Part shown: positions 3,190-25,611 of the stretch, piece by piece
How positions within the stretch are numbered: position 1 is the first letter of the stretch
Layout of the letters: every line of letters starts with the position of its first letter
IMG/VR virus record: IMGVR_UViG_3300038701_000885
Span: 1 to 28,360 of that record
Origin: a virus
DNA length: 28,360 bases
Strand: one strand, 5' to 3'
Position numbers and translations under genes: made by a program
The notes under the pieces: generated by a model
Told to the model about the DNA's origin: nothing
Database searches by the model: none
Seen by the model: only the letters and a program-made list of their open reading frames with translations

Positions 3190-4197
3190 ATGCCATACCA
3201 ACTAATAGACACAGTAACTCCAGACGTTGGCGCCAAGGTAGGCGGCAACAAGATTAATAACAACGCAATACAAGCGCAATATCAAGGCGGCTACTTCACT
3301 GTTGGCGGCACTGCTAATGCTATTACGCTAACCAGTGCGACAGGCGCGCCATCTGGTTACGCGACAGGGCAAGAGTTCTGCTTCCGTGCCAATGCGACTA
3401 ATACGGGCGTGACCACCGTTAACGTGGACGGCCTTGGTATTAAAACAATCAAAACCATTTCAGGTGCTGGCTTGCCAGCGGGGTATTTATCGACTTCTGC
3501 TGATACATGCCTCCGTTACGATGGCGTTAATATGATTGCCAATGTTAGTGCAGGCACGCTTGCGGATCAGGTGTCAACTAATGATAATCTGAGTGCAGCT
3601 ATAGCAGGAACTGCAACATTTAGCGGTGATGTTTACACGTTTTCGCCTTCAGGAACTGGTTTCCGTTCACTGCAAGCTGGAATGTATTTGAGCTTTAGAT
3701 TGCCAAGTGGCTCATCTAATACTACAACTACGCCGGATATTGACTATAACGGCACAACATACACAGTGAAATGGATTGATGGCAGTGCGCTAGAAGCTGA
3801 TGACTTAAACGAGACTTACAATAAACACCCTATTCTGTTCTACTTCGACGGCACGGACATGCTGATTGCTAGTGATATTAGCGGGGATTCAACAAACAAC
3901 TCTTGGCTAAAAACCACTAGCGGCGAGATGACTTTAAAGCTAGCTAACGGCGGGACTTATGCAATAACAACGCCCGCGCCAATTTATGGCTTTGTAAATT
4001 CCACTAACATTACATGGGTGTACTCGCATCAATTTATGACCAGCCCCGTAGTTATACCATCCGGCACGAATCTTAATTGCACAGTTGGTATCAGCTCAAT
4101 AGCAGAATCTCAGGTTGGTTTTAGATTATCATCTAGGGACTCCAGCGCATCTAACACAAGAACATGGAATATAGTTGCAACAGGTCGCTGGTACTAA
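3190..4197 (+). CDS. Tail fibre / adhesin-like protein
   Basis: This 335-residue protein has an AAGGA ribosome site nine bases after the preceding gene ends. The N-terminal half is rich in T, N, G and A, with a passage of type TGVTTVNVDGLG followed by ADTCLRYDGVNMI. Such passages occur in phage tail-fibre head or collar-like beta domains. The second half contains similar short beta segments (TPDIDYNGTTYTVKW, LFYFDGTDMLIA). It probably forms another receptor-facing fibre or a chaperoned tip. It ends TAATG into the next small ORF. No enzyme motif is visible. The exact role is not determinable here. Confidence 0.65.
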   Translation: MPYQLIDTVTPDVGAKVGGNKINNNAIQAQYQGGYFTVGGTANAITLTSATGAPSGYATGQEFCFRANATNTGVTTVNVDGLGIKTIKTISGAGLPAGYLSTSADTCLRYDGVNMIANVSAGTLADQVSTNDNLSAAIAGTATFSGDVYTFSPSGTGFRSLQAGMYLSFRLPSGSSNTTTTPDIDYNGTTYTVKWIDGSALEADDLNETYNKHPILFYFDGTDMLIASDISGDSTNNSWLKTTSGEMTLKLANGGTYAITTPAPIYGFVNSTNITWVYSHQFMTSPVVIPSGTNLNCTVGISSIAESQVGFRLSSRDSSASNTRTWNIVATGRWY

Positions 4198-4412
4198 TGA
4201 CAACAATAGCCCGCATCCTAGAATACACAGCCATAGCGCTGTTTGTTCTGTTTGCGGGTTGTGCCATGGCTTGCTGGTTGATTGGCTCTAGGATAGAACG
4301 GCTACGGTTAAGGCTACAAGGCCGGAAAGCACAGCCAGCATCACCGCGCCGGAAAGCTTCCAATAGGTTTTATGTGTGGCTAAAGCGATATCTGTCTCGC
4401 TTTGTTTTATAA
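4197..4412 (+). CDS. Small single-span membrane protein, unknown
   Basis: This 71-residue ORF starts at the ATG of a TAATG overlap with the fibre gene. Residues ~9-27 form one hydrophobic segment (ALFVLFAGCAMACWLIG), followed by a strongly basic tail rich in R and K. That topology would suit a lysis accessory protein or membrane anchor. No family is recognised. Its 3' half overlaps, on the opposite strand, a better-looking coiled-coil gene, and it has no clear ribosome site of its own. Expression would rely on coupling, so the call is moderate. Confidence 0.4.
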   Translation: MTTIARILEYTAIALFVLFAGCAMACWLIGSRIERLRLRLQGRKAQPASPRRKASNRFYVWLKRYLSRFVL

Positions 4413-5592: not shown

Positions 5593-6078
5593 CAAACTAT
5601 ATCCATTTGTCTTCTCCTTTATTTCCTTTGTTTTTTGCTTTTCATAATAATTATCGTAAGAAAGCTTTATTGAGTAGTCACTTATTCTGTATTTAATAGA
5701 TACTCCGTACCCTGTGCTTGTGTCAGGATTACACCCATATCCATCTACACAGCTTTTATACTCAGTATAAGAACTCCTAGCCTCTGCACTAATATTTTTG
5801 TCTATTTCAATGGATTGGTTGATACTTAATGAAAAGAAATTTTTAACTGAAGCTTTATATTGGCTAACAGTGCTATTTCTTTCATTTGACTGGCCTGTGT
5901 ATAAGCTAAATCCTGTTCCCAGTCTATTATAGTAAGAGCCACCAACTTGCACCAAGGTTATAGGGAAATTAGCCTCCGCACCCCATGTGTAGTTGAGATC
6001 TGTTATCTTTATCTCGGCCTCATACCCAGCATGGCCAAGGCTTGAGGCTAGTAAAAGTGCAATGATTAATGTTTTCAT
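5572..6078 (-). CDS. Outer-membrane beta-barrel protein, moron-like
   Basis: The 168-residue protein has a clear signal peptide (MKTLIIALLLASSLGHA, cleavage after residue 17). Alternating beta strands follow, and the chain ends in phenylalanine (SIVAHF), as expected for BAM-dependent outer-membrane barrels. The mature length of ~150 residues suits an eight-stranded barrel. Two cysteines (KSCVDGYGC) could form a loop disulfide. It is oriented leftward, has GGAG 8 bases before the ATG and its own promoter at 6109-6136. It faces the lysis genes tail to tail. Similar phage-borne barrels (lambda Lom and relatives) alter the host surface. Superinfection exclusion is my inference. Confidence 0.75.
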   Translation of the reverse strand: MKTLIIALLLASSLGHAGYEAEIKITDLNYTWGAEANFPITLVQVGGSYYNRLGTGFSLYTGQSNERNSTVSQYKASVKNFFSLSINQSIEIDKNISAEARSSYTEYKSCVDGYGCNPDTSTGYGVSIKYRISDYSIKLSYDNYYEKQKTKEIKEKTNGYSLSIVAHF

Positions 6079-6088
6079 TTGTAACGCT

Positions 6089-6126
6089 CCGTGTGTGTTT
6101 GTAATTTAAATATACACTACACACGG
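6089..6126. repeat. Inverted repeat around the barrel-gene -10 box
   Basis: CCGTGTGT at 6089-6096 and ACACACGG at 6119-6126 are perfect 8-base inverted arms separated by 22 bases. They flank the -10 box of the barrel-gene promoter, so a repressor or activator site is plausible. A stem in the untranslated leader is the alternative. Confidence 0.4.
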
Positions 6127-6136
6127 GCATTCACAA
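6109..6136 (-). promoter_or_regulatory. Sigma70-like promoter of the beta-barrel gene
   Basis: On the minus strand this reads TTGTGA, a 16-base spacer, then TATATT, about 30 bases before the ATG. Five bases upstream of the -35 box is ACCTATCGAAAAT (6142-6154), also found six bases upstream of the promoter at 22855. Confidence 0.6.
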
Positions 6137-6162
6137 CTTAGATTTTCGATAGGTTGGCGGGG

Positions 6163-6501
6163 TTATTTATCGGCTAGGGCGATTAATACTAAGCACTCGC
6201 AGGCGGCGCGGAGGTATCGTTTATTTGATGCTGAGAAGCTGCGACTACCTATTGAACGGTATGCCTTCCACGTATCTTTTGTGTACGGCTTTGGGTTAAT
6301 TTGGATTTTTTCTTCAATAACCAACGGCATCGTTAGATTGTAGTCGTCAAGCATGTGTATTTGATATAAATCATACTCATCAAACATATAATGAGTACCC
6401 GTATCAGGATCCATCCAATGCTTACCTTCCGGCGGATAAAGCCAAATCATAGCCCTTTCCAATTCAGCATCACTTAGCGCGCTTACTTGTTCTGGTGTCA
6501 T
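6163..6501 (-). CDS. Hypothetical phage protein, Phage ABA sandwich-like
   Basis: This 112-residue protein is the last gene of the leftward operon. It begins with a short helical segment (MTPEQVSALSDAELERAMIW). It later contains DYNLTMPLVIE and ends with SASNKRYLRAACECLVLIALA. This order resembles the small ABA-sandwich-domain proteins common in siphophages, whose function is unknown. It starts in a four-base ATGA overlap with the upstream 28-residue gene, so translation is coupled. There is no membrane segment and no catalytic motif. Confidence 0.6.
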   Translation of the reverse strand: MTPEQVSALSDAELERAMIWLYPPEGKHWMDPDTGTHYMFDEYDLYQIHMLDDYNLTMPLVIEEKIQINPKPYTKDTWKAYRSIGSRSFSASNKRYLRAACECLVLIALADK

Positions 6502-6584
6502 ATCAGCTTCTCCAACTCTTGGCGCGTCATCCGCACGCCGTTAATGTGGTATGTCCATGTGCCGTTAATTCGTGTGGCTTTCAT
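6498..6584 (-). CDS. 28-residue conserved-position small protein
   Basis: The ORF begins MKATRINGTWTYHINGVRMT and ends QELEKLI. It overlaps both neighbours by ATGA: its start lies in the stop of the methyltransferase gene and its stop lies in the start of the ABA-like gene. Such exact tiling through the only gap between two genes argues that it is translated. The sequence looks like one beta hairpin plus a helix. Function is unknown. Confidence 0.55.
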   Translation of the reverse strand: MKATRINGTWTYHINGVRMTRQELEKLI

Positions 6585-7237
6585 TGCTTTACTCCATATT
6601 TTTCAAAAACAGCTTGAGCAAATCCACGAGGGGTTGCGCTGCGAATGTTTTTTGTCTTAAGGCTTTTACCGCCTAGCTTCTTATGCTGGTCTGAATACCC
6701 AGGCTCAACATACACAGCTTTCTTTTCTGGTAACTCAAAGCCGCCGCCCGACCACAGACATGTTTTCTTTGGATATGCGTCCTTGGGCGATATGTAATCT
6801 GGCCATTCTGGGTGCTGGTCATCTTCTTGCAAATAACCTCCAAACTCGTAAGGATGAAATGTAAAGTCTGGTTTGCCAAATATCGATGCAAACACACTCA
6901 CTGGATTTTCAAAGAACCAGGGCGAACCAGATAGCTCGCCGATCATTCTGCATTGCTCTGCTACAAGGGCGGCTTTAGCCTGAAAGTGCTGGTCTTGTTT
7001 TCTCTTGCTCTCAAAGTGGGCCGCACCGCTTACGGCAACATCAGTGCAAGGCGGAAAACCCATTACAAAAGCAATATCGTATTTACGCATAACCTGGCGA
7101 ATCACTGGAATCATTTCAAGTATGGTGCCATTATCATAGCGCTGTGGGTCAACATGAAGCGCGTAATATCCAGCGTCTCGCCAAGGCTTTGTTGCCATTC
7201 CGGTGTAGTCACATAAGCTGATAATTGCTTTCATCAT
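6581..7237 (-). CDS. Cytosine-C5 DNA methyltransferase-like protein
   Basis: This 218-residue protein has the Pro-Cys catalytic motif GFPPCTDVAVSG, with Cys64 as the expected nucleophile. FFENPVS (ENP at 110-112) stands where family motif VI carries ENV. A C-terminal RSATPRGFAQAVFEKYG resembles motifs IX-X. The protein is much shorter than usual C5 methylases (over 300 residues), and little room remains for a target recognition domain. It could methylate with relaxed specificity or act with a partner. It overlaps the genes on both sides by four bases. The likely role is protection of phage DNA from restriction. It lies in the same operon as recombination genes. Confidence 0.7.
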   Translation of the reverse strand: MMKAIISLCDYTGMATKPWRDAGYYALHVDPQRYDNGTILEMIPVIRQVMRKYDIAFVMGFPPCTDVAVSGAAHFESKRKQDQHFQAKAALVAEQCRMIGELSGSPWFFENPVSVFASIFGKPDFTFHPYEFGGYLQEDDQHPEWPDYISPKDAYPKKTCLWSGGGFELPEKKAVYVEPGYSDQHKKLGGKSLKTKNIRSATPRGFAQAVFEKYGVKQ

Positions 7238-8645: not shown

Positions 8646-8951
8646 TCAGAACGGTACTTCGTCGTCGAAGTCTTCGAACGCTTGGCCCTGCTGTGGAGCT
8701 GCCTGCTGACTAGGCGCAGGAGTAGAGCCTGAGTCACTCCAAAAGATTCGGCTGTTGCCTAAAATAGCTCCTTCGCCTTTTTGTTGATCTTTCCATGATT
8801 GCGTGATCATGCCGTTATTACCGTATTGATCTTGTGCATCTAGATCAATAAAAGCAGTAGCATCTAAGTACACGCCCTTTTCCCCTTTAAATAAACGCGC
8901 TTTGTCGATCTTGCTAACGTCAATCTTTAAGCTTACGCCGATTTTAGCCAT
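8646..8951 (-). CDS. ssb: Phage single-stranded DNA-binding protein
   Basis: This 101-residue protein has a beta-rich N-terminal ~70 residues, a flexible linker rich in Q, A and P, and an acidic tip ending FDDEVPF. The tip is the SSB hallmark that recruits repair and replication proteins. The OB-like body does not resemble E. coli SSB closely and is short, so it is probably a phage-type SSB. It follows the exonuclease and the 197-residue protein in the leftward operon, the usual setting for phage recombination. Its role is to coat single-stranded DNA made by the exonuclease and at the replication fork. Confidence 0.75.
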   Translation of the reverse strand: MAKIGVSLKIDVSKIDKARLFKGEKGVYLDATAFIDLDAQDQYGNNGMITQSWKDQQKGEGAILGNSRIFWSDSGSTPAPSQQAAPQQGQAFEDFDDEVPF

Positions 8952-8961
8952 GAAATACCCC

Positions 8962-9555
8962 TTATAGGTCGTCTAGTGAATCGTCTAGCTGGTCGCTGGA
9001 CTGTTTGTTAATTGAGTTGATTGCTTCTAGCTGGCTAGCAGATAAAAGCCCCTTTTGTTGTACTTTTGCGATTAATTGCTGGGTAGTCATCTTGCCCGAT
9101 TGCACTGCACTTGTCCACGCTGGCAGGTTATTATCAAAGTCTGCTTGCGGGTAATCAGGAATTACAAGCGGTTCGACTGTATAAGGCTTGCGCTTTCCAC
9201 GCGTAGCAGTTAATGCAACGCTGATAGACTCTTCTATCGCGCTAACGTGACTAATACGAATGCCACCTACCTTTTGGCCGGCCCATGTAACACTTGGATC
9301 ATTAAACAAGGTCATGCTGCGACCGACCCAATTATTGCCATCCTTGCCCCATGCCACGATTAACAAACGACGCATCGATTTGCACGGCTTGTATGGTTGC
9401 AGGCCACCGCCTAGGTGAAGATTGATAGGCTGGTCATCTTGGCCAGACAGTGACACGCTTTGCACTGTTACCGTCATCGGCCCGCTGATTAGGTTGTCTG
9501 CGTTTAACTGGTCAGATTTTGGTTTTATTGTCTTGCTTAAATCCATTAGGCTCAT
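8962..9555 (-). CDS. Uncharacterised protein between exonuclease and SSB
   Basis: This 197-residue protein overlaps the exonuclease gene by four bases. It contains SDQLNADNLISGPMTVTV, PCKSMRRLL, WVGRSMTLFNDPSVTWAG and VGGIRISHVS. I recognise this pattern from many siphophage genomes as a conserved protein of unknown function in the same place. The C-terminal ~50 residues are helical with a Q/S-rich end. Lambda-like phages put a single-strand annealing protein in this slot, so that role is an inference worth testing. It has no RecT or Red-beta motif that I can see. Confidence 0.65.
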   Translation of the reverse strand: MSLMDLSKTIKPKSDQLNADNLISGPMTVTVQSVSLSGQDDQPINLHLGGGLQPYKPCKSMRRLLIVAWGKDGNNWVGRSMTLFNDPSVTWAGQKVGGIRISHVSAIEESISVALTATRGKRKPYTVEPLVIPDYPQADFDNNLPAWTSAVQSGKMTTQQLIAKVQQKGLLSASQLEAINSINKQSSDQLDDSLDDL

Positions 9556-10403
9556 AGTTCCACCTCTGCTTCTTCATCTAATGCCCACATTGGTAGGCTT
9601 AACATTTCGTCTTCTTGGGCAATGCCTTGCCAATCGCCTGATTCCATAGCTTGCTTATACGCTTCTAAATCTGCCTTGAACTGTCGTGCGCCAACTTGCT
9701 TGGCTTCTGTGTCTAGCTCAAAAACTTTGTTAGCGTGTGGCTGTTGTTCTTCTACTGTCAAGAAACGAAAGCGAAGTTTATTGCCAGTGATTAGCTTGTA
9801 AACGTAGCTATAAAAAGCATCTTGTACATGATAGCGATAATTAGCGACTGACTTTTGAAACTGCTCGTAGCGCACATCTTGAGTCTTTTTAAGATCAACA
9901 CAGTTATTGTCGTAAAGCGTAACCCAGTCATAGCGACAACGTAATAGCAAACCTGTAACGGGGCACGTTACAAACGCGCTTAGTTCTGCAAAGCCTTCTT
10001 TTTTCAGTTCTTTGATAGCTGTCGGGTTTAGCTGTATGGCTTCTTGCATGCCTAGCACGTTATCGCCTTCTGATCCTGTTAGCACAAAATCAGCACTGTG
10101 TGTTTTAACCGCTTCTCTGTACTCAGATTTACGACGGTCGTTAATACCATGCAGAACCATGTATTCCTTATCAAATCGCAGCGGCTCAAGTATGGCGCAA
10201 TGAATAGCTGAACCAATCGCCATGTTGCGGGTTGGTTCGCGCTTCTGGGCGTACACTAGATGCGCAGGGCTACGATTAACAAGGTCTAACATCGACTTGC
10301 TTACACTTTCGTGCTCGTGGTACGCATCTTCTGGCATACCGATAACAAAGCAGCCTTTTGCGGCTTGTTCTGGTGTGAAGTCTTTGTATTCGATTATGTT
10401 CAT
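9552..10403 (-). CDS. RecE-type PD-(D/E)XK exonuclease (DUF3799-like)
   Basis: The protein is 283 residues from the ATG at 10403; an ATG at 10439 would add 12 residues but lacks a ribosome site. It shows SKSMLDLVNRSPAH, then GSAIHCAILEP (His68), FAELSAF, RYDWV (Asp159), VDLKKT (Asp170, Lys172) and a QDAFY motif (Gln194-Tyr198). These are the signature of RecE/exonuclease VIII-type nucleases. It would resect double-stranded ends 5' to 3' for phage recombination. It is near the start of the leftward operon, driven by the strong promoter at 10638-10666, with an unknown protein and SSB downstream. Confidence 0.8.
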   Translation of the reverse strand: MNIIEYKDFTPEQAAKGCFVIGMPEDAYHEHESVSKSMLDLVNRSPAHLVYAQKREPTRNMAIGSAIHCAILEPLRFDKEYMVLHGINDRRKSEYREAVKTHSADFVLTGSEGDNVLGMQEAIQLNPTAIKELKKEGFAELSAFVTCPVTGLLLRCRYDWVTLYDNNCVDLKKTQDVRYEQFQKSVANYRYHVQDAFYSYVYKLITGNKLRFRFLTVEEQQPHANKVFELDTEAKQVGARQFKADLEAYKQAMESGDWQGIAQEDEMLSLPMWALDEEAEVEL

Positions 10404-10404
10404 T

Positions 10405-10605
10405 TTAGTGGGCCCCATTGAATTCAAGTAGCTGCTCATGCACTTCTATCCAGATTGCGTTAATTGACTGGCTCATAATCTCACAGCTCTTGTCTTGGTT
10501 TTGCTCAGCTTCCATTGTCAGTATTGAATCAACCTGACCTAAAAGCTCTAAAACCATTTTTAGTTTTTCATTAACTTCAATATATGTACTGGCTGTATCT
10601 GTCAT
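10405..10605 (-). CDS. Small helical protein, first gene of leftward operon
   Basis: The 66-residue product is almost entirely helical and acidic (TDTASTYIEVNEKLKMVLEL; EQNQDKSCEIMSQSINAIW). The ATG at 10605 has GGAG about 8 bases upstream; the longer in-frame ORF would begin inside the promoter region. No family is recognised. It is one base from the exonuclease start, so the two are probably coexpressed. Confidence 0.55.
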   Translation of the reverse strand: MTDTASTYIEVNEKLKMVLELLGQVDSILTMEAEQNQDKSCEIMSQSINAIWIEVHEQLLEFNGAH

Positions 10606-13036: not shown

Positions 13037-13231
13037 ATGCACGATTGTGATCATGCTGATAGACAACAATACGTTCGTTTTACCCGCGAAAACTCTACCA
13101 CTCATTACGCTGTTTACTGCCATAAATGCGCAAAGCTTGTTAAAAGCAAAGCTCACAATGGCAAGCTTCTTATTAAGCATTCGGAAATTCCAAGCGGACG
13201 AACTGTTTTTGATATCGGGAGTATGAAGTAA
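13037..13231 (+). CDS. Small Cys/His protein, possible zinc finger
   Basis: The 64-residue protein has MHDCDHADRQQYV, then YCHKCAKLV, so Cys and His pairs could bind a zinc ion. A basic end follows. AAGGAG lies about 7 bases before the ATG, and the stop overlaps the primase start as TAATG. A role with the primase-ATPase is suggested by coupling only. Confidence 0.55.
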   Translation: MHDCDHADRQQYVRFTRENSTTHYAVYCHKCAKLVKSKAHNGKLLIKHSEIPSGRTVFDIGSMK

Positions 13232-15996
13232 TGACTACACGAACAGTAGAATGGTACGCCCAACAATACACCAACCGATTCAACTGGGAACTAGTGCCGC
13301 TTGATCCCGGTCAAAAGTTCCCAACTACTAAGAACTGGGGCGAGAACACAATTAAAACACCTGAGCAGGCTAGTGCGTTCTATGCCAAGCATCCTGATTG
13401 GGGTGTAGGTCTTGTTCTTGGTAAGTCTAAAATGTGCAGTATCGACATCGACTGCGAAGACTCTTTTCAAGCCCTACTAGCTGAGTTCGGACTACCTGCC
13501 GAAGACCTTGATCAGTATCCTTGCATTATGGGGCGCGGACGCCGAATTACGTTCCGAGTTCCTGACGGTGCTGATCTAAAGTACTGCAAACTGAACTGGC
13601 CTAGTGAGGCAGACCCCACTGGTGCGATTCATAGAGGCATGATGAAAGATGCTTTGGCTGCACGCAATGAAGGGCGAACAGAAGACGAAGCAAAAATAAG
13701 AGAAGAGGCTAAACAGTATTCAAAGTTCACTGTTGTAGAGCTTCGCGTGGCTGACGCAAACGAAGGCCAGCAACGCCAAGACGTTCTACCGCCTACCATT
13801 CACCCAGACACAGGCAAGCCATACGAGTGGCTTGTTCAACCGCCTAAGCAAGGCGAATGGCCTACTGTACCAGATTGGGTGTTAAGCTTCTGGACTGCGT
13901 GGGATAAGTTCAAACCCCAGTTCATTGACGCTTGCCCATGGGGGCCAAAGCCTGAGCCAGTAGCGCACAAGCCAAAACCAGCTCCTAGTGCCGACTACGA
14001 TAACCAAGGCGTTAACGTAATCGAGGAATTCATCAAGGCACATGACCTATTCTCGATGTTGCGGAACTACGGTTATAGCAAGAAGGGCAACCGATGGTTA
14101 AGCCCGCACTCTGGTACTGGCATACCGGGTGTGCACATCCTACCAGACGGCGACCGTTGCTACATACACCACGCATCTGATCCGTTATGCAGTGCTGACA
14201 CAAACCAGCCTGTGAACTGCTTCGATCTGTTCTGCTACTACGAGCATAACAACGACGTGAGCAAGGCTGTCAAGGCTGCTGCTGAATTGCTAGGAATCAA
14301 GAGCAAGCGACAAGCGCCACCGCCTCCGATGCCTAAACAGGAAGCGCCAACGAGTGAGACTGAACCGGAGCAGCCACAAGCAGAACAGCCACAGCAGAAC
14401 GACCAGCCTGCTACAGAGTTCTTATGCCTAGGCTACAACGCCAACAGCATCTACGTGTTGCCTCGACGTTCTGAGCAAGTGACGCGCTTGGCATACGGAT
14501 CGCTGACCAAGTCAGCACTGTTGCAGATCGCAAGCCTCGAATGGTGGGGCGCGTTCTTTCCCAAGAAGGAAGGCATTGACTGGGAGCTGGCCATGAACGC
14601 ATTGCTTCGCTGGTGTGAGGCGAAGGGCATCTACGACCCTCGCAACGAGCGTGGACGTGGCGCGTGGTACGACAGCGGACAGCCAGTGCTTCACCTTGGC
14701 GGCTCTCTAATAGTGGACGGCAAGCAGAAGCGCATCAACGAGCACGAAAGCAAGTACATCTACACCAAGCAGGCAACGCTTGAGAACGCATTCAACGCTA
14801 CACCTGCCGACGACAAGGAAGCGGCTAAGCTGGGCGCTATCTTCAAGCAAGTGAACTGGATCAAGCCAGAGCACGGGCTACTAGCACTGGGCTGGTCAGT
14901 ACTAGCGCCTGTATGCGGCGCATTGAACTGGCGGCCTCACTTGTGGCTGACTGCGCAGCGTGGTGCGGGTAAGTCATGGTTTCAGTCGTACATCATGAAA
15001 CCTGTAGTAGGTGAAGAGTCGTTGATCTACTGCCAAGGCGGTACAACTGAGGCGGGTATACGCCAAGCTCTTAAGCGTGATGCTCGCCCGGTAATGTTCG
15101 ACGAAGCCGAAAGCGAAGACGCTAGCGCTGCCCGCCGGATGCAGTCAGTGCTAGAACTGGCCAGACAGTCTAGTAGCGACACTGGCGCGGAGATCGTGAA
15201 GGGTACGGCTAACGGTGACGGCATGAGCTTCAACGTTCGCTCCATGTTCCTTCTTGGATCTATCAACGTAGGATTGAAACAGGCAGCAGACGAAAGCCGC
15301 TTCTCTGTGGTAGCACTGGCACGACCTGACAAGGGTAAGGCTGAGGCTGAGCGGTTCGCAGGATTCGAGCGCGAAGTACTGGCCACGATGACACCTAGCT
15401 TCTGTGCGTCTATCCGTGCGCGTACTTACCACGGCATTCCTGTTATCCGCAAGAACGCCAAGGTACTGGCTCAAGCTGTTGCTGAGATGCTTGGTTCGCA
15501 GCGTATGGGTGATCAGGTAGGCACTCTATTAGCGGGAGCTTTCAGTCTTGCGGATATGAGTGAGTACAGTCTTGGTCATGCACGCGACCTAGTAGCAGGG
15601 CTGGACTTCAATGAGGCCACAGAAGCCGAGGAAGTCAGCGACGAGGCTAACTGCTTGAACGTGATCTTACAGCGCCAGGTGCGGGTTGATCTGGATGGTA
15701 TCGGTTCGGTTACCCGTTCACTAGGTGAGTTGGTAGACGTTGCAGCAGGTCGTGGCGAAGTAGGTGGGCTTAGTCGTGGCGAGGCTGGCGACACGCTTAG
15801 CCGCCATGGTTTGCGTGTCGAAGATGGCCGTCTTTGCGTGGCCAATACTCACGCAGAACTAGCCAAAACGTTACGCGATACACCTTGGAGCTCTGGTCAT
15901 CGTCGCATGTTGTTACGGATAGACGGGGCTGAAAGCGGCGCTAAGCCGATAAAATTTGCTGGCTCAGCTAGTCGATATGTGTCGATTCCCATATAA
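13231..15996 (+). CDS. Primase/polymerase-helicase fusion (AEP primase plus ATPase)
   Basis: This 921-residue protein combines two replication enzymes. The N-terminus resembles archaeo-eukaryotic primase/Prim-Pol domains, with motif I CSIDIDCED (Asp72, Asp74), GRGRRITF, and LPPTIHPDTGKPYEW (His191). A CHC2-like or linker segment follows, then a Pro/Gln-rich linker at ~360-395. The C-terminal part has Walker A TAQRGAGKSW (~573-583) and a Walker B-like PVMFDEAESE (~619-629), as in DUF927/superfamily-3-like phage helicases. It would open and prime the origin just downstream. C-ending codons are unusually common from ~14400 to 15500 compared with flanking genes, suggesting a different history or expression level. 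Confidence 0.75.
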   Translation: MTTRTVEWYAQQYTNRFNWELVPLDPGQKFPTTKNWGENTIKTPEQASAFYAKHPDWGVGLVLGKSKMCSIDIDCEDSFQALLAEFGLPAEDLDQYPCIMGRGRRITFRVPDGADLKYCKLNWPSEADPTGAIHRGMMKDALAARNEGRTEDEAKIREEAKQYSKFTVVELRVADANEGQQRQDVLPPTIHPDTGKPYEWLVQPPKQGEWPTVPDWVLSFWTAWDKFKPQFIDACPWGPKPEPVAHKPKPAPSADYDNQGVNVIEEFIKAHDLFSMLRNYGYSKKGNRWLSPHSGTGIPGVHILPDGDRCYIHHASDPLCSADTNQPVNCFDLFCYYEHNNDVSKAVKAAAELLGIKSKRQAPPPPMPKQEAPTSETEPEQPQAEQPQQNDQPATEFLCLGYNANSIYVLPRRSEQVTRLAYGSLTKSALLQIASLEWWGAFFPKKEGIDWELAMNALLRWCEAKGIYDPRNERGRGAWYDSGQPVLHLGGSLIVDGKQKRINEHESKYIYTKQATLENAFNATPADDKEAAKLGAIFKQVNWIKPEHGLLALGWSVLAPVCGALNWRPHLWLTAQRGAGKSWFQSYIMKPVVGEESLIYCQGGTTEAGIRQALKRDARPVMFDEAESEDASAARRMQSVLELARQSSSDTGAEIVKGTANGDGMSFNVRSMFLLGSINVGLKQAADESRFSVVALARPDKGKAEAERFAGFEREVLATMTPSFCASIRARTYHGIPVIRKNAKVLAQAVAEMLGSQRMGDQVGTLLAGAFSLADMSEYSLGHARDLVAGLDFNEATEAEEVSDEANCLNVILQRQVRVDLDGIGSVTRSLGELVDVAAGRGEVGGLSRGEAGDTLSRHGLRVEDGRLCVANTHAELAKTLRDTPWSSGHRRMLLRIDGAESGAKPIKFAGSASRYVSIPI

Positions 15997-16022
15997 TAGC
16001 GTTACCCCTAGTATATAACCTT

Positions 16023-16045
16023 AGCCCCTTAATTGGGGCTTTTTT
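16023..16045 (+). terminator. Rho-independent terminator after the primase gene
   Basis: AGCCCC and GGGGCT are perfect six-base arms around a TTAATT loop, followed by six T. It is placed 27 bases after the primase stop and ends the rightward replication operon. It lies within the iteron field, between the first and second iteron. Confidence 0.8.
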
Positions 16046-16082
16046 ATGTCTGAAAGGAATATAGGGTAACGTTTTGGAGCTT

Positions 16083-16104
16083 GCGTTACCCCTGCGTTAC
16101 CCCT
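16083..16104 (+). repeat. Tandem pair of 11-base iterons
   Basis: GCGTTACCCCT occurs twice with no gap, 16083-16093 and 16094-16104. One turn of helix per repeat puts both sites on the same DNA face, as expected for cooperative initiator binding. Confidence 0.7.
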
Positions 16105-16310
16105 GTTTTCCCTTTAAAATCAATGACTTAGCAAAAAGTAACGCTGGTAACGCAAAATTAGGATAGATATATATAAGGAATGAATACCAAGTATGTAGGC
16201 TAGTATGGGTTATTTTTTCTATAGGGGGCTCTATTATTATTATTATTTGTAACTTTATTATTATTATTAGGGGGAAACCCAGTAAACATGGGCCTTTCAG
16301 CGGGAACGCT

Positions 16311-16343
16311 AGGGGTAACGGCAAGCTTGCCAGCGTTACCCCT
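16311..16343. repeat. Inverted iteron pair around a 12-base palindrome
   Basis: AGGGGTAACG at 16311-16320 faces CGTTACCCCT at 16334-16343. Between them, sharing the last G of the left arm, lies the perfect palindrome GGCAAGCTTGCC (16320-16331). The element could extrude as a cruciform or bind a dimer. It sits on the far side of the AT-rich tract from the tandem iterons. Confidence 0.65.
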
Positions 16344-16440
16344 GTCTTGTAAATCATTGATTTATAAGGGTTTTAGGGGTAACGGTAATCGTTACCGTAG
16401 TTTTTATAACTAAAGGTTATTAATATACAGACGCATACCG

Positions 16441-16468
16441 TTGTGTCCTGCAGTTATCCTGCTACACT
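16441..16468 (+). promoter_or_regulatory. Promoter for the post-origin early genes
   Basis: TTGTGT, a 16-base spacer, then TGC followed by TACACT, an extended -10 form. It lies ~35 bases before the gene at 16502 and directly after the iteron field. Confidence 0.55.
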
Positions 16469-16501
16469 GACAGGGTGTTCAATTAAAAAGGAGTGATAGA
16501 G

Positions 16502-16852
16502 ATGTTTGATTACGGGACTAAGCCTATAAACAGAACAGCCGGATTGGTTACTGGCCAATCTGGGTGTGCAACAGATGATACGCTGAGTGATGAGCAACTA
16601 AGGGAAAACTTAGTATCAAAATGGAAGGCGCTGACTAACAAGATAAAAACAATGGATAAAGGATCGCCAGAGAGGAAGATATTAGGTAAGGAACAAGCAG
16701 AACTACAAAAGCAAATCTCGAATCTTAGGCCTAAGCGAAAATACAAGGATTTAAGGGATCATATACTTGACGTACTAAGAGAAGAGCTATCAGAGTTTGA
16801 GTTCAGAAGACTAATACATAAAGCAAGTATTCGAGCAGACGAGCAGGAGTGA
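16502..16852 (+). CDS. Hypothetical coiled-coil protein
   Basis: The 116-residue protein is charged and mostly helical. A likely coiled coil lies at ~40-80 (SKWKALTNKIKTMDKG; EQAELQKQISNL), followed by a basic KRKYKDL and a helical acidic end. The start chosen is the ATG in GGAGTGATAGAGATG, not the in-frame GTG that overlaps the ribosome site. The stop is part of the same leader repeated before the next gene. No family is recognised. Confidence 0.55.
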   Translation: MFDYGTKPINRTAGLVTGQSGCATDDTLSDEQLRENLVSKWKALTNKIKTMDKGSPERKILGKEQAELQKQISNLRPKRKYKDLRDHILDVLREELSEFEFRRLIHKASIRADEQE

Positions 16853-17288: not shown

Positions 17289-17415
17289 CAACACCCAAGG
17301 CCCGCTATTAAACGCTAAACGGATAGCGGTAGTAAGTATCATAATTTTATTAATCGCCCTGTGTGTGGCCATAGGTTACGTCTGGGTGTGTATTTGGAGG
17401 GAGATTAACCAATGA
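17281..17415 (+). CDS. Small membrane protein ORF without a standard start codon
   Basis: This frame encodes a 44-residue protein, beginning ITNNTQGPLLNAKR. A strong membrane span follows (IAVVSIIILLIALCVAIGYV) and the end is WREINQ. Its TGA overlaps the methylase ATG as ATGA, and its proposed first codon, ATA at 17281, overlaps the end of the previous gene. That is the tiling seen for every other gene here. No in-frame ATG, GTG, CTG or TTG precedes the span, so it either uses ATA or lost its start by a point change. A 7-base inverted repeat (CCGCTAT/ATAGCGG, 17302-17329) lies in its 5' half. Confidence 0.4.
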   Translation: MTNNTQGPLLNAKRIAVVSIIILLIALCVAIGYVWVCIWREINQ

Positions 17416-18131
17416 AATACATGGGAAGCAAGAACAGGATCGCAAAGCATCTTTTGCCGATAATTCTGAAGGATAGAAAGGAGGGCCAATGGTACGTAGA
17501 GCCTTTTGTGGGTGGTGCCAATATGATTGATAAGGTTGACGGTAATCGGATTGGGGCGGATTTGAATCCTTTTTTAATAAAAGCCCTTGAACTTATTAGA
17601 GATAATCCTGAATCCATTCCTGATGTCATTACAGAGGAGGAGTATAAATACTTCAAGGAGTATGGGGAGTGTACGGGCATTACTGGATTTGTGGCATTTT
17701 CAATGTCTTTTGGCGGCAAGTTCTTTGGTGGATACAGGAGGGATAAAGCAGGCACCAAAGGGTGCGTTGATAATATGAAAAATCAAACTAGGATGGCAAA
17801 AAACTCAGCTATAAAACAGTCTTCAAATATTAAGAGTGTCATATTTCATGCCATGCCATATGAACACTTGGATATTCCTAGTAATAGCATTATATATTGC
17901 GACCCGCCATACCAAGGCACGACAGGCTACAAAGACAAATTCAACCATGAAGACTTCTGGCAATGGTGCCGCGATAAAGTAAGCGAAGGGCATAGAGTGT
18001 TTATTAGTGAATATAACGCGCCTGATGACTTTAAATGCGTCTGGCAGCAAGAGTTGAATGTAAGTGTGGCAAAGAGTGGAAAGCACAAAAAGGCTACGGA
18101 AAAGCTATTTGTGCATGAGTCGCAAAACTAA
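17412..18131 (+). CDS. Dam-like N6-adenine DNA methyltransferase (D12 class)
   Basis: This 239-residue protein has MKYMGSKNRI at the start, the AdoMet-binding YVEPFVGGANMI (motif I, residues ~28-39) and catalytic DPPYQGT (164-170). The spacing is normal for D12/Dam enzymes. The length is slightly below Dam (~270). It would methylate adenines in phage DNA, guarding against restriction or self-attack by the phage nuclease. GGAGGGAG lies 10 bases upstream and the start overlaps the small membrane ORF by ATGA. A second methylase-like gene of the C5 type is encoded at 6581-7237. Confidence 0.85.
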   Translation: MKYMGSKNRIAKHLLPIILKDRKEGQWYVEPFVGGANMIDKVDGNRIGADLNPFLIKALELIRDNPESIPDVITEEEYKYFKEYGECTGITGFVAFSMSFGGKFFGGYRRDKAGTKGCVDNMKNQTRMAKNSAIKQSSNIKSVIFHAMPYEHLDIPSNSIIYCDPPYQGTTGYKDKFNHEDFWQWCRDKVSEGHRVFISEYNAPDDFKCVWQQELNVSVAKSGKHKKATEKLFVHESQN

Positions 18132-25010: not shown

Positions 25011-25286
25011 ATGACAACACTTAGAGATAAACCACGTAGTGAACTTGGCAAGAAATTGCAGAGCTATCGTGCGGATAGACCAGACGAATGGACTATGGAT
25101 GAATTTACTAGAATGGCGGAGAAACTTGAGCAACAACTAGCCGACCTAAAAGCCAGTCTGCCAAAGGTGCGGGCGGATGCTGTTAGTTATGCAATATCTG
25201 AGTGCGCTCATAATGGTACAGACGGGCAGGGGTGGCAATCTGATTTAGAGCAATGCGTAATAAAACTGGAGGCAGGCAATGAGTAA
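25011..25286 (+). CDS. Hypothetical coiled-coil protein
   Basis: The 91-residue protein has a helical charged segment (FTRMAEKLEQQLADLKASL) and a Cys/His-containing end. Its leader is AAGGAGTGATAGAAATG, the third copy of the leader seen at 16488 and 16847. The start is taken at the ATG for the same reason. It overlaps the next gene by 8 bases. No family is recognised. Confidence 0.5.
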   Translation: MTTLRDKPRSELGKKLQSYRADRPDEWTMDEFTRMAEKLEQQLADLKASLPKVRADAVSYAISECAHNGTDGQGWQSDLEQCVIKLEAGNE

Positions 25287-25611
25287 GCAGAAGATTAGAG
25301 AGTGGCTAAATAATATAGATTTGGATAGCCTTAAGTATGAAGTCTTTTTTGAAGAGATTGTAGGTTTTATCCATCAATACACACAAGAGCAGAGCGGGTT
25401 GATTGACCTAAAAGATGAAATTCCAAGCCATAAGGAACAAGTACTCTTTAAAGTTAAATATGAAGGTACAAAATGGATGTACAGATCAGGGTACGCAAAG
25501 CATTATGATAACGGTGATGTTTTGATTGTTATTCCAGAATTTGGAAAGGTGGAAGATAGGCAAATAGCAGGGTGGAAGCCACTACCACCAACAGAGGAGG
25601 TGTTATTGTGA
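25279..25611 (+). CDS. DUF551-like phage protein
   Basis: The 110-residue protein ends in GWKPLPPTEEVL, and the region before it (DEIPSHKEQVLFKVKYEG, then MYRSGYAK) matches the DUF551 pattern: a short domain in phage proteins, with LP-x-VLF and the closing GWxPLP. The N-terminal half (REWLNNIDLDSLKYEVFFEE) is helical and precedes the domain. Function is unknown. It overlaps the next gene by GTGA. Confidence 0.65.
   Translation: MSKQKIREWLNNIDLDSLKYEVFFEEIVGFIHQYTQEQSGLIDLKDEIPSHKEQVLFKVKYEGTKWMYRSGYAKHYDNGDVLIVIPEFGKVEDRQIAGWKPLPPTEEVLL

Follow-up and report, generated by a model that had tools for sequence, protein, structure and literature searches.

SaPI/PICI elements encode a primase and an initiator helicase, which are sometimes fused, and their replication origin lies immediately 3' of the rep gene (PMC6092414; PMC7581432). 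The SaPI Rep protein recognises the origin via its C-terminal domain (PMC7581432), and PICI origins with an AT-rich core and a bipartite layout support autonomous plasmid replication (PMC6092414). In one survey, the Rep-ori layout was called unique to PICIs. The C-terminal domain of the SCCmec protein Cch2 binds repeats 3' of its own gene (PMC7581432). The alpha protein of P4 unites primase, helicase and winged helix in one chain, binds repeats and unwinds (PMC4234260). In ORF904 of pRN1 and in phage BIP-1, a Prim-Pol is combined with a helicase and a C-terminal wHTH, and a putative origin is located directly 3' of the gene (PMC4234260). For the RepA-ori system of the V. cholerae PLE, the DNA-binding domain and the origin co-vary and are swapped as a module, specificity was shown by origin swaps, and the exchange is apparently driven by an origin-directed nuclease (PMC8263062). 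Here, we compare these systems to a putative replication origin in a tailed phage and its relatives.

Gene Context of the Repeat Region

We analysed a 28,360-bp fragment from IMG/VR (record IMGVR_UViG_3300038701_000885), which is called the window in the following. It encodes terminase subunits and tail genes and, therefore, stems from a tailed phage. A gene of the initiator type (13231-15996, plus strand) codes for a protein of 921 aa with an N-terminal Prim-Pol domain, an AAA+ helicase domain and a C-terminal DNA-binding domain, and it ends directly before the repeat region. The only ORF across this region is an unsupported antisense ORF of 86 codons. Neither tRNA genes nor Rfam families were found in the window.

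A DNA-level phage search with the surrounding 7.9 kb returned mostly the methyltransferase region. The D12-class adenine methyltransferase encoded at 17412-18131 represents the main DNA-level similarity of the window to known phages (Vibrio, Shewanella). A recombination block on the minus strand (8646-10439) encodes an exonuclease VIII-like protein (phrog_412) together with a phrog_11517 protein and a small protein whose acidic EDFDDEVPF tail resembles those of SSBs.

Iterons, AT-Rich Core and IHF Consensus Sites

The sequence AGGGGTAACG/CGTTACCCCT is present in six exact copies within 400 bp directly 3' of the Prim-Pol/helicase gene, and no further exact copy was found elsewhere in the window. 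The 7-bp core CGTTACC/GGTAACG occurs nine times in 15997-16502, while 2000 dinucleotide shuffles gave a mean of 0.084 and a maximum of 2; the remaining approximately 27.9 kb of the window contain four cores.

An AT-rich core divides the iterons into a left and a right array. The first exact copy of CGTTACCCCT (16000-16009, plus strand) starts 4 nt past the stop codon of the initiator gene and is followed by the intrinsic terminator of this gene (16023-16046, plus strand; hairpin at 16023-16040), which is conserved in relatives. A variant iteron (TAGGGTAACG) is located on the minus strand at 16062-16071, and two exact copies on the plus strand (16084-16093 and 16095-16104) form a tandem pair 11 bp apart. 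The left array further comprises a degenerate iteron pair with 9 bp spacing (GTAACGCTGGTAACG, 16138-16152, minus strand). The AT-rich core, the proposed melting site, extends from 16155 to 16270, contains TTATTATTA tracts and has 76% AT, with a peak of 83% at about 16210-16269. To the right follows a degenerate iteron (AGCGGGAACG, 16299-16308, minus strand), for which two relatives (L001 and L044) have GGTAACG at the same place. The exact copies at 16311-16320 (minus strand) and 16334-16343 (plus strand) are inverted and enclose the 12-bp palindrome GGCAAGCTTGCC (16320-16331). The last exact copy (16375-16384, minus strand) pairs with an iteron core CGTTACC at 16390-16396 (plus strand). A 424-nt region folds far better than its shuffles (z -6.0), since its two arms carry inverted iterons.

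Two sites with a perfect match to the IHF consensus, AATCAATGACTTA at 16118-16130 (plus strand) and AATCAATGATTTA at 16350-16362 (minus strand), lie in inverted orientation on either side of the AT-rich core. The 28-kb window as a whole contains just three matches to WATCAANNNNTTR, two of which are inside the putative origin.

When the window was aligned to the two nearest relatives holding the region, the right half was conserved nearly site by site, in the order three iterons, IHF, two iterons. Iterons, IHF sites and AT-richness were largely kept in the nearest relatives. Neither the 12-bp palindrome nor the exact TTA tract was conserved there, and we dropped both as functional elements for this reason.

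A first-pass annotation of the window, made without database searches, had described six copies, a tandem pair one turn apart, an inverted pair around the palindrome and a flanked tract. This description held. Its statement that the stretch is without genes also held, with the terminator hairpin to be added, and so did the assignment of a primase and an ATPase to the adjacent gene (PF09250 Prim-Pol and phrog_35358 in 921 aa). It had missed the two exact inverted IHF consensus sites and several degenerate repeats. The GC skew, which it had proposed as a check, showed no inflection at the repeat site in the window and thus gave no support. In three complete relatives, the skew was confounded by gene strand or absent and provided no independent support for an origin.

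Domain Structure of the Initiator Protein

The Prim-Pol domain (PF09250) covers aa 10-216 (13258-13878, plus strand). No Pfam family was assigned to the C-terminal half of the protein; aa 361-921 match phrog_35358, a phage primase-helicase family. AlphaFold gave a good model of the C-terminal half (pLDDT 85.6). The AAA+/MCM-like helicase domain at about aa 475-800 (14653-15630, plus strand) was delimited by structure alignment (range 117-442 of the model). The top structural match of the model was the SCCmec Cch helicase (5dgk; 409 aligned residues, Z 13.9, rmsd 7.5), and further fold matches of the helicase part were SaPI5 PriRep1, the NrS-1 helicase and D5 helicases. An HMM search of solved structures gave P-loop noise only, so that no solved relative was found by sequence.

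The last 118 residues (aa 804-921; 15640-15993, plus strand) are modelled as a compact alpha/beta domain with short strands at the end (pLDDT 94.5). The assignment of this part as a DNA-binding domain rests on the model, a structural match and the tracking of the repeat sequence described below. Its best structural match was the C-terminal domain of SaPIbov1 Rep (8tch, residues 454-549). With a Z of 3.8 this match is weak and only suggestive. Foldseek gave no significant match for the C-terminal domain alone.

Conservation of the Layout in Relatives

Relatives were collected by scans of IMG/VR (protein; C-terminal-half alignment), GTDB genomes and phage records, which yielded well over a hundred. 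A viral scan with the phi1422 protein as query recovered phi1422 alone. Repeat arrays were identified by searching the 520 nt behind each helicase gene for motifs de novo, and a downstream array was recovered in most non-redundant loci. For 51 loci, the inter-array gap, taken as the largest gap between sites, had a median of 98 bp (IQR 94-106) and an AT content with a median of 16 points above the contig, and the repeat spacing was mostly 8-11 bp.

The repeat sequence itself drifts among lineages (CGTTACC, TGTTACA, CGTAACA, CGTGACA, CGTGAGA, CGTCAGA, CGTTAGG, GTCAACA, GGCACA, GCTGACA). Despite this drift, array position, spacing and core length were constant in about 50 non-redundant phage loci, and the layout persisted where the C-terminal halves were only about 30-40% identical to that of the window. 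In distant relatives the gap was 97 (Synechococcus S-H1) and 91 (Bdellovibrio phi1422). The gene after the array differed among relatives, while the array remained. These comparisons show that the anatomy is conserved, with constant geometry and drifting sequence.

The relatives phi1422, KLER1-1 and S-H1 encode terminase and structural proteins and are tailed phages. In the complete phi1422 genome, the array was the strongest repeat cluster, and no second comparable cluster appeared among the top windows. In one relative (L039), about 20 TTGCAGC repeats occur in a run at 6000-6750, downstream of the origin.

IHF consensus matches numbered 15 in 39 kb of downstream regions versus 25 in 548 kb elsewhere. 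The sites were mainly limited to the clade of the window and KLER1-1, and a GC-rich cyanophage-like clade has kept the arrays without IHF sites. It is likely that the host factor IHF assists at the putative origin in the clade of the window; IHF use is inferred here, as there are no occupancy data.

About ten relatives with a homologous helicase lacked an array directly downstream. The only one of these searched genome-wide was Bordetella phage PY223 (L279), which has no 3' array; an iteron/AT-rich region is located 12 kb from the gene, at 25272-25590. An IHF-like AATCATAGACTTA lies beside the right array of this region. Its distance from the gene suggests that the origin can be displaced.

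Phages with other arrangements were also seen. Two Pseudomonas phages that share the Prim-Pol half only have other repeats (TGTGTTGGGT, GGTTAGGGT) 3' of their replication genes (L025, 6715-7060; L026, 6701-6990). In four phages of about 90 kb that have no 3' array, the primase gene is preceded by a common TTAGCTACCGG-like element (L020, 1600-1716; L024, 1600-1770; L027, 1620-1794; L028, 1690-1875), which is degenerate in L019. This element may be a leader RNA or a displaced cis element.

The C-Terminal Domain Tracks the Repeat Sequence

In array-bearing relatives, TOPRIM or Zn-ribbon primases replace the Prim-Pol. Since the primase type varies while the arrays stay, the primase is not the reader of the repeat, and this independence from the primase type is shown by the comparison. 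We tested each column of the C-terminal half against base 6 of the repeat. Residue 908 was at the top with a z of 16.7, followed by the next column with 11.2. In the window protein this residue is a lysine (codon 15952-15954, plus strand), which is located in the first of the C-terminal short strands of the model.

In the discovery loci, Arg or Lys at position 908 was combined with C in 30 of 30 cases and Tyr or Trp with G in 13 cases. The single Arg-G case was KLER1-1, for which the orientation of the repeat is uncertain. Hold-out loci, which were not used in discovery, confirmed the co-variation (R/K-C 22/22, Y/W-G 26/27). Some hold-out loci may be closely related to discovery loci, so that their counts do not represent independent events. 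The sole hold-out exception, L143 (Tyr-C), has a hybrid origin at 4112-4411 with the junction in the AT-rich core: the left array, CGTGAGA, fits its Tyr, and the right array has CGTTACA. This hybrid could be a recombinant or a misassembly. The distant region of PY223 carries a repeat of the base type predicted by its Arg.

Over 81 distinct alleles, residue 908 predicted base 6 with a leave-one-out accuracy of 0.96 versus a baseline of 0.60; the best column outside the domain (before aa 820) reached 0.85. The best single predictor of base 4 was residue 918 (0.72 versus a baseline of 0.51), which is Ser in the window (codon 15982-15984, plus strand). On a tree that was built from the helicase part without the C-terminal domain, residue 908 and base 6 each changed about ten times. 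Five independent pairs on well-supported branches comprised four in agreement, none in disagreement and one without difference. The sign test gave p 0.125, and this phylogenetically corrected test is underpowered alone. A partial Mantel test of repeat distance against sliding protein windows was weak (0.1-0.24 at the C-terminus, also 0.21 at 660-699) and was superseded by the per-column tests. While the co-variation on held-out loci is shown, binding data are lacking. Together with the natural exchange described below, the co-variation indicates that the repeat tracks the C-terminal domain of about 100 residues and not the primase, and it favours this domain as the reader.

Natural Exchange of the Domain Together with the Repeats

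The proteins of L091 and L195 are identical at 261 of 261 positions in aa 560-819, and from aa 820 on only 66 of 104 positions agree. Their repeats differ (CGTAACA versus CGTCAGA). The DNA identity of this pair is about 95%, falls to approximately 0.5 within 300 nt on either side of the stop codon and then returns to approximately 0.9. L102 and L195, which have the same repeat, are 98-100% identical across the same 600 bp. Among close pairs, mean C-terminal identity was 0.63 for different repeats (n = 24) and 0.94 for the same repeat (n = 211). Sequence comparison thus shows that a cassette of approximately 600 bp, comprising the C-terminal domain and the origin, was swapped between near-identical phages with flanks of about 90% identity. 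The exchanged unit starts near aa 820, corresponding to nt 15688 of the window.

This pattern implies that the C-terminal domain and the origin move as one unit. As domain and repeats are adjacent, hitch-hiking is possible, and co-inheritance as such carries less weight than the residue-base code. Linkage alone might explain part of the cassette pattern. We favour functional matching because of the sharp boundary at the start of the domain and the residue-base code.

Comparison to Known Initiator-Origin Systems

The first-pass annotation had found no match to a known phage origin. The type can nevertheless be assigned, as the layout is that of the SaPI/PICI Rep-ori modules. Like in these modules, the putative origin is located directly 3' of the initiator gene in the window and in most relatives, two iteron sets lie on either side of an AT-rich region, and the initiator belongs to the same AAA+ helicase fold group (SaPI5 PriRep1 match). 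The C-terminal domain likewise appears to set iteron specificity, as judged from co-variation and natural exchange and not from binding. Unlike the SaPI/PICI modules, the carriers described here are complete tailed phages and not satellites without virion genes, sequence similarity to Rep proteins of solved structure was not detected, the primase is interchangeable (Prim-Pol or TOPRIM), and IHF sites are present in the clade of the window.

SCCmec Cch resembles the window protein over nearly the whole model, but Cch/Cch2 belong to a chromosomal cassette with few repeats and have the CCPol polymerase as partner instead of a fused Prim-Pol. P4 alpha has a TOPRIM-type primase, whereas the window has a PF09250 Prim-Pol and TOPRIM versions are found in relatives. 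The ori/crr layout of P4 also appears to differ, as far as can be judged from the window, which is a fragment, and from phi1422, where only one cluster was seen. The window gene shares with pRN1 and BIP-1 the order Prim-Pol, helicase and C-terminal DNA-binding domain with a cis region just 3', but the pRN1/BIP-1 origin is described as a large stem-loop of approximately 100 nt without iterons, while the window region carries iterons. PLE RepA differs as a satellite protein of the RepA_N family that lacks helicase and primase and has an N-terminal DNA-binding domain. The polymerase of phage NrS-1 also combines Prim-Pol and ring helicase in one phage protein, but is described to initiate through the primase recognition motif TTTGGTTA, and iteron arrays are not mentioned in the passages considered. 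No phage origin of this layout was found in the open-access literature that we searched; an earlier description, for example in subscription journals, is possible. With this reservation, we consider the locus as a known type of layout, PICI-like Rep-ori, that is new in complete tailed phages.

Proposed Function of the Region and Alternatives

We conclude that 15997-16400 is very likely (probability roughly 0.85) the phage's own replication origin with the 921-residue protein as initiator. The first-pass annotation had suggested a candidate origin and self-contained replicon. This is supported by the relatives, including the conservation of repeat spacing in about 50 non-redundant loci, a check it had proposed, so that its refuting condition of repeats lacking conservation in relatives did not apply, but there is no direct evidence for a replication start at this site. 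Among the binders it had considered, the primase-ATPase is favoured, through its C-terminal 100 or so residues and not the primase, and a host factor applies in part, with IHF probably assisting.

According to our model, the C-terminal domain (about aa 820-921) would bind the CGTTACCCCT iterons in both arrays, and host IHF would bend the DNA at the two inverted sites in the clade of the window. The AAA+ helicase domains would assemble into one or more rings at the arrays and open the AT-rich core, and the N-terminal Prim-Pol would prime the exposed strands. Replication would probably be bidirectional. The protein would act as a self-loading initiator-helicase on its own iterons, as in the SaPI/PICI Rep-ori, and the neighbouring DNA-binding domain and origin would be passed on and swapped as a single specificity cassette. 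The molecular steps, from iteron binding and the use of IHF to melting, the loading of the helicase and the start and direction of replication, are inferred, as no binding, footprint or nascent-strand data are available.

The arrays may instead be operators for the initiator or another phage regulator, which control transcription of the initiator gene or of genes located beyond 16500, with replication starting elsewhere. The repeats are indeed located between two genes and beside a terminator, and a promoter could overlap with part of the array. However, they follow the initiator gene instead of lying at its promoter, there is no cluster of this kind ahead of the gene, and the next gene varies in relatives while the array is constant. 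The constant AT-rich core of approximately 98 bp between the arrays suits melting more than regulation, and the PY223 region is 12 kb from the gene. We consider this explanation very unlikely.

Alternatively, the region may be a copy-control or second cis site like the P4 crr, or a partition site, which is bound by the initiator but is not the start point. In P4, replication involves a further cis region in addition to the origin. Iterons can titrate initiators, and the window is only a fragment. However, the top windows of the complete phi1422 genome contain no second comparable cluster, and both the bipartite arrangement and the AT-rich core agree with PICI origins from which plasmids replicate autonomously (PMC6092414). 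This alternative is also very improbable. Since the window is a 28-kb fragment, a second origin elsewhere is not excluded.

An origin of the pRN1/BIP-1 type, with recognition of a large hairpin and not of iterons, would agree with the same gene order, the origin being just 3' of the Prim-Pol/helicase/wHTH gene (PMC4234260), and with the fold of the 424-nt region (z -6.0 versus shuffles), but this fold follows from the inverted iterons in both arms, residue-base co-variation is unexpected if structure alone is read, and the published pRN1 origin is stated to be without iterons (PMC4234260), which leaves very little in favour of this view.

Implications for Phage Replicons

The replication origins of environmental phages are mostly unknown. 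If the region is an origin as proposed, many uncultured phages reveal their origin in the sequence beside the initiator gene, and one residue largely predicts the type of repeat. The natural cassette exchanges represent ready-made chimeras for initiator-origin specificity, and the PICI-like layout in complete tailed phages bears on the source of satellite replicons.

A bolder reading goes beyond this. A widespread group of tailed phages would replicate from PICI-like iteron origins, would swap a specificity cassette of approximately 600 bp with a simple recognition code (908 to base 6, 918 to base 4) and would change its replicon type in this way; in that case, the PICI origins would represent a single branch among replicons of a kind that phages carry, and would not be unique to PICIs. 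We lean towards this reading without being confident of it. If it is true, replicon switching may help to evade origin-directed nucleases, satellites or incompatibility, as was proposed for PLE satellites.
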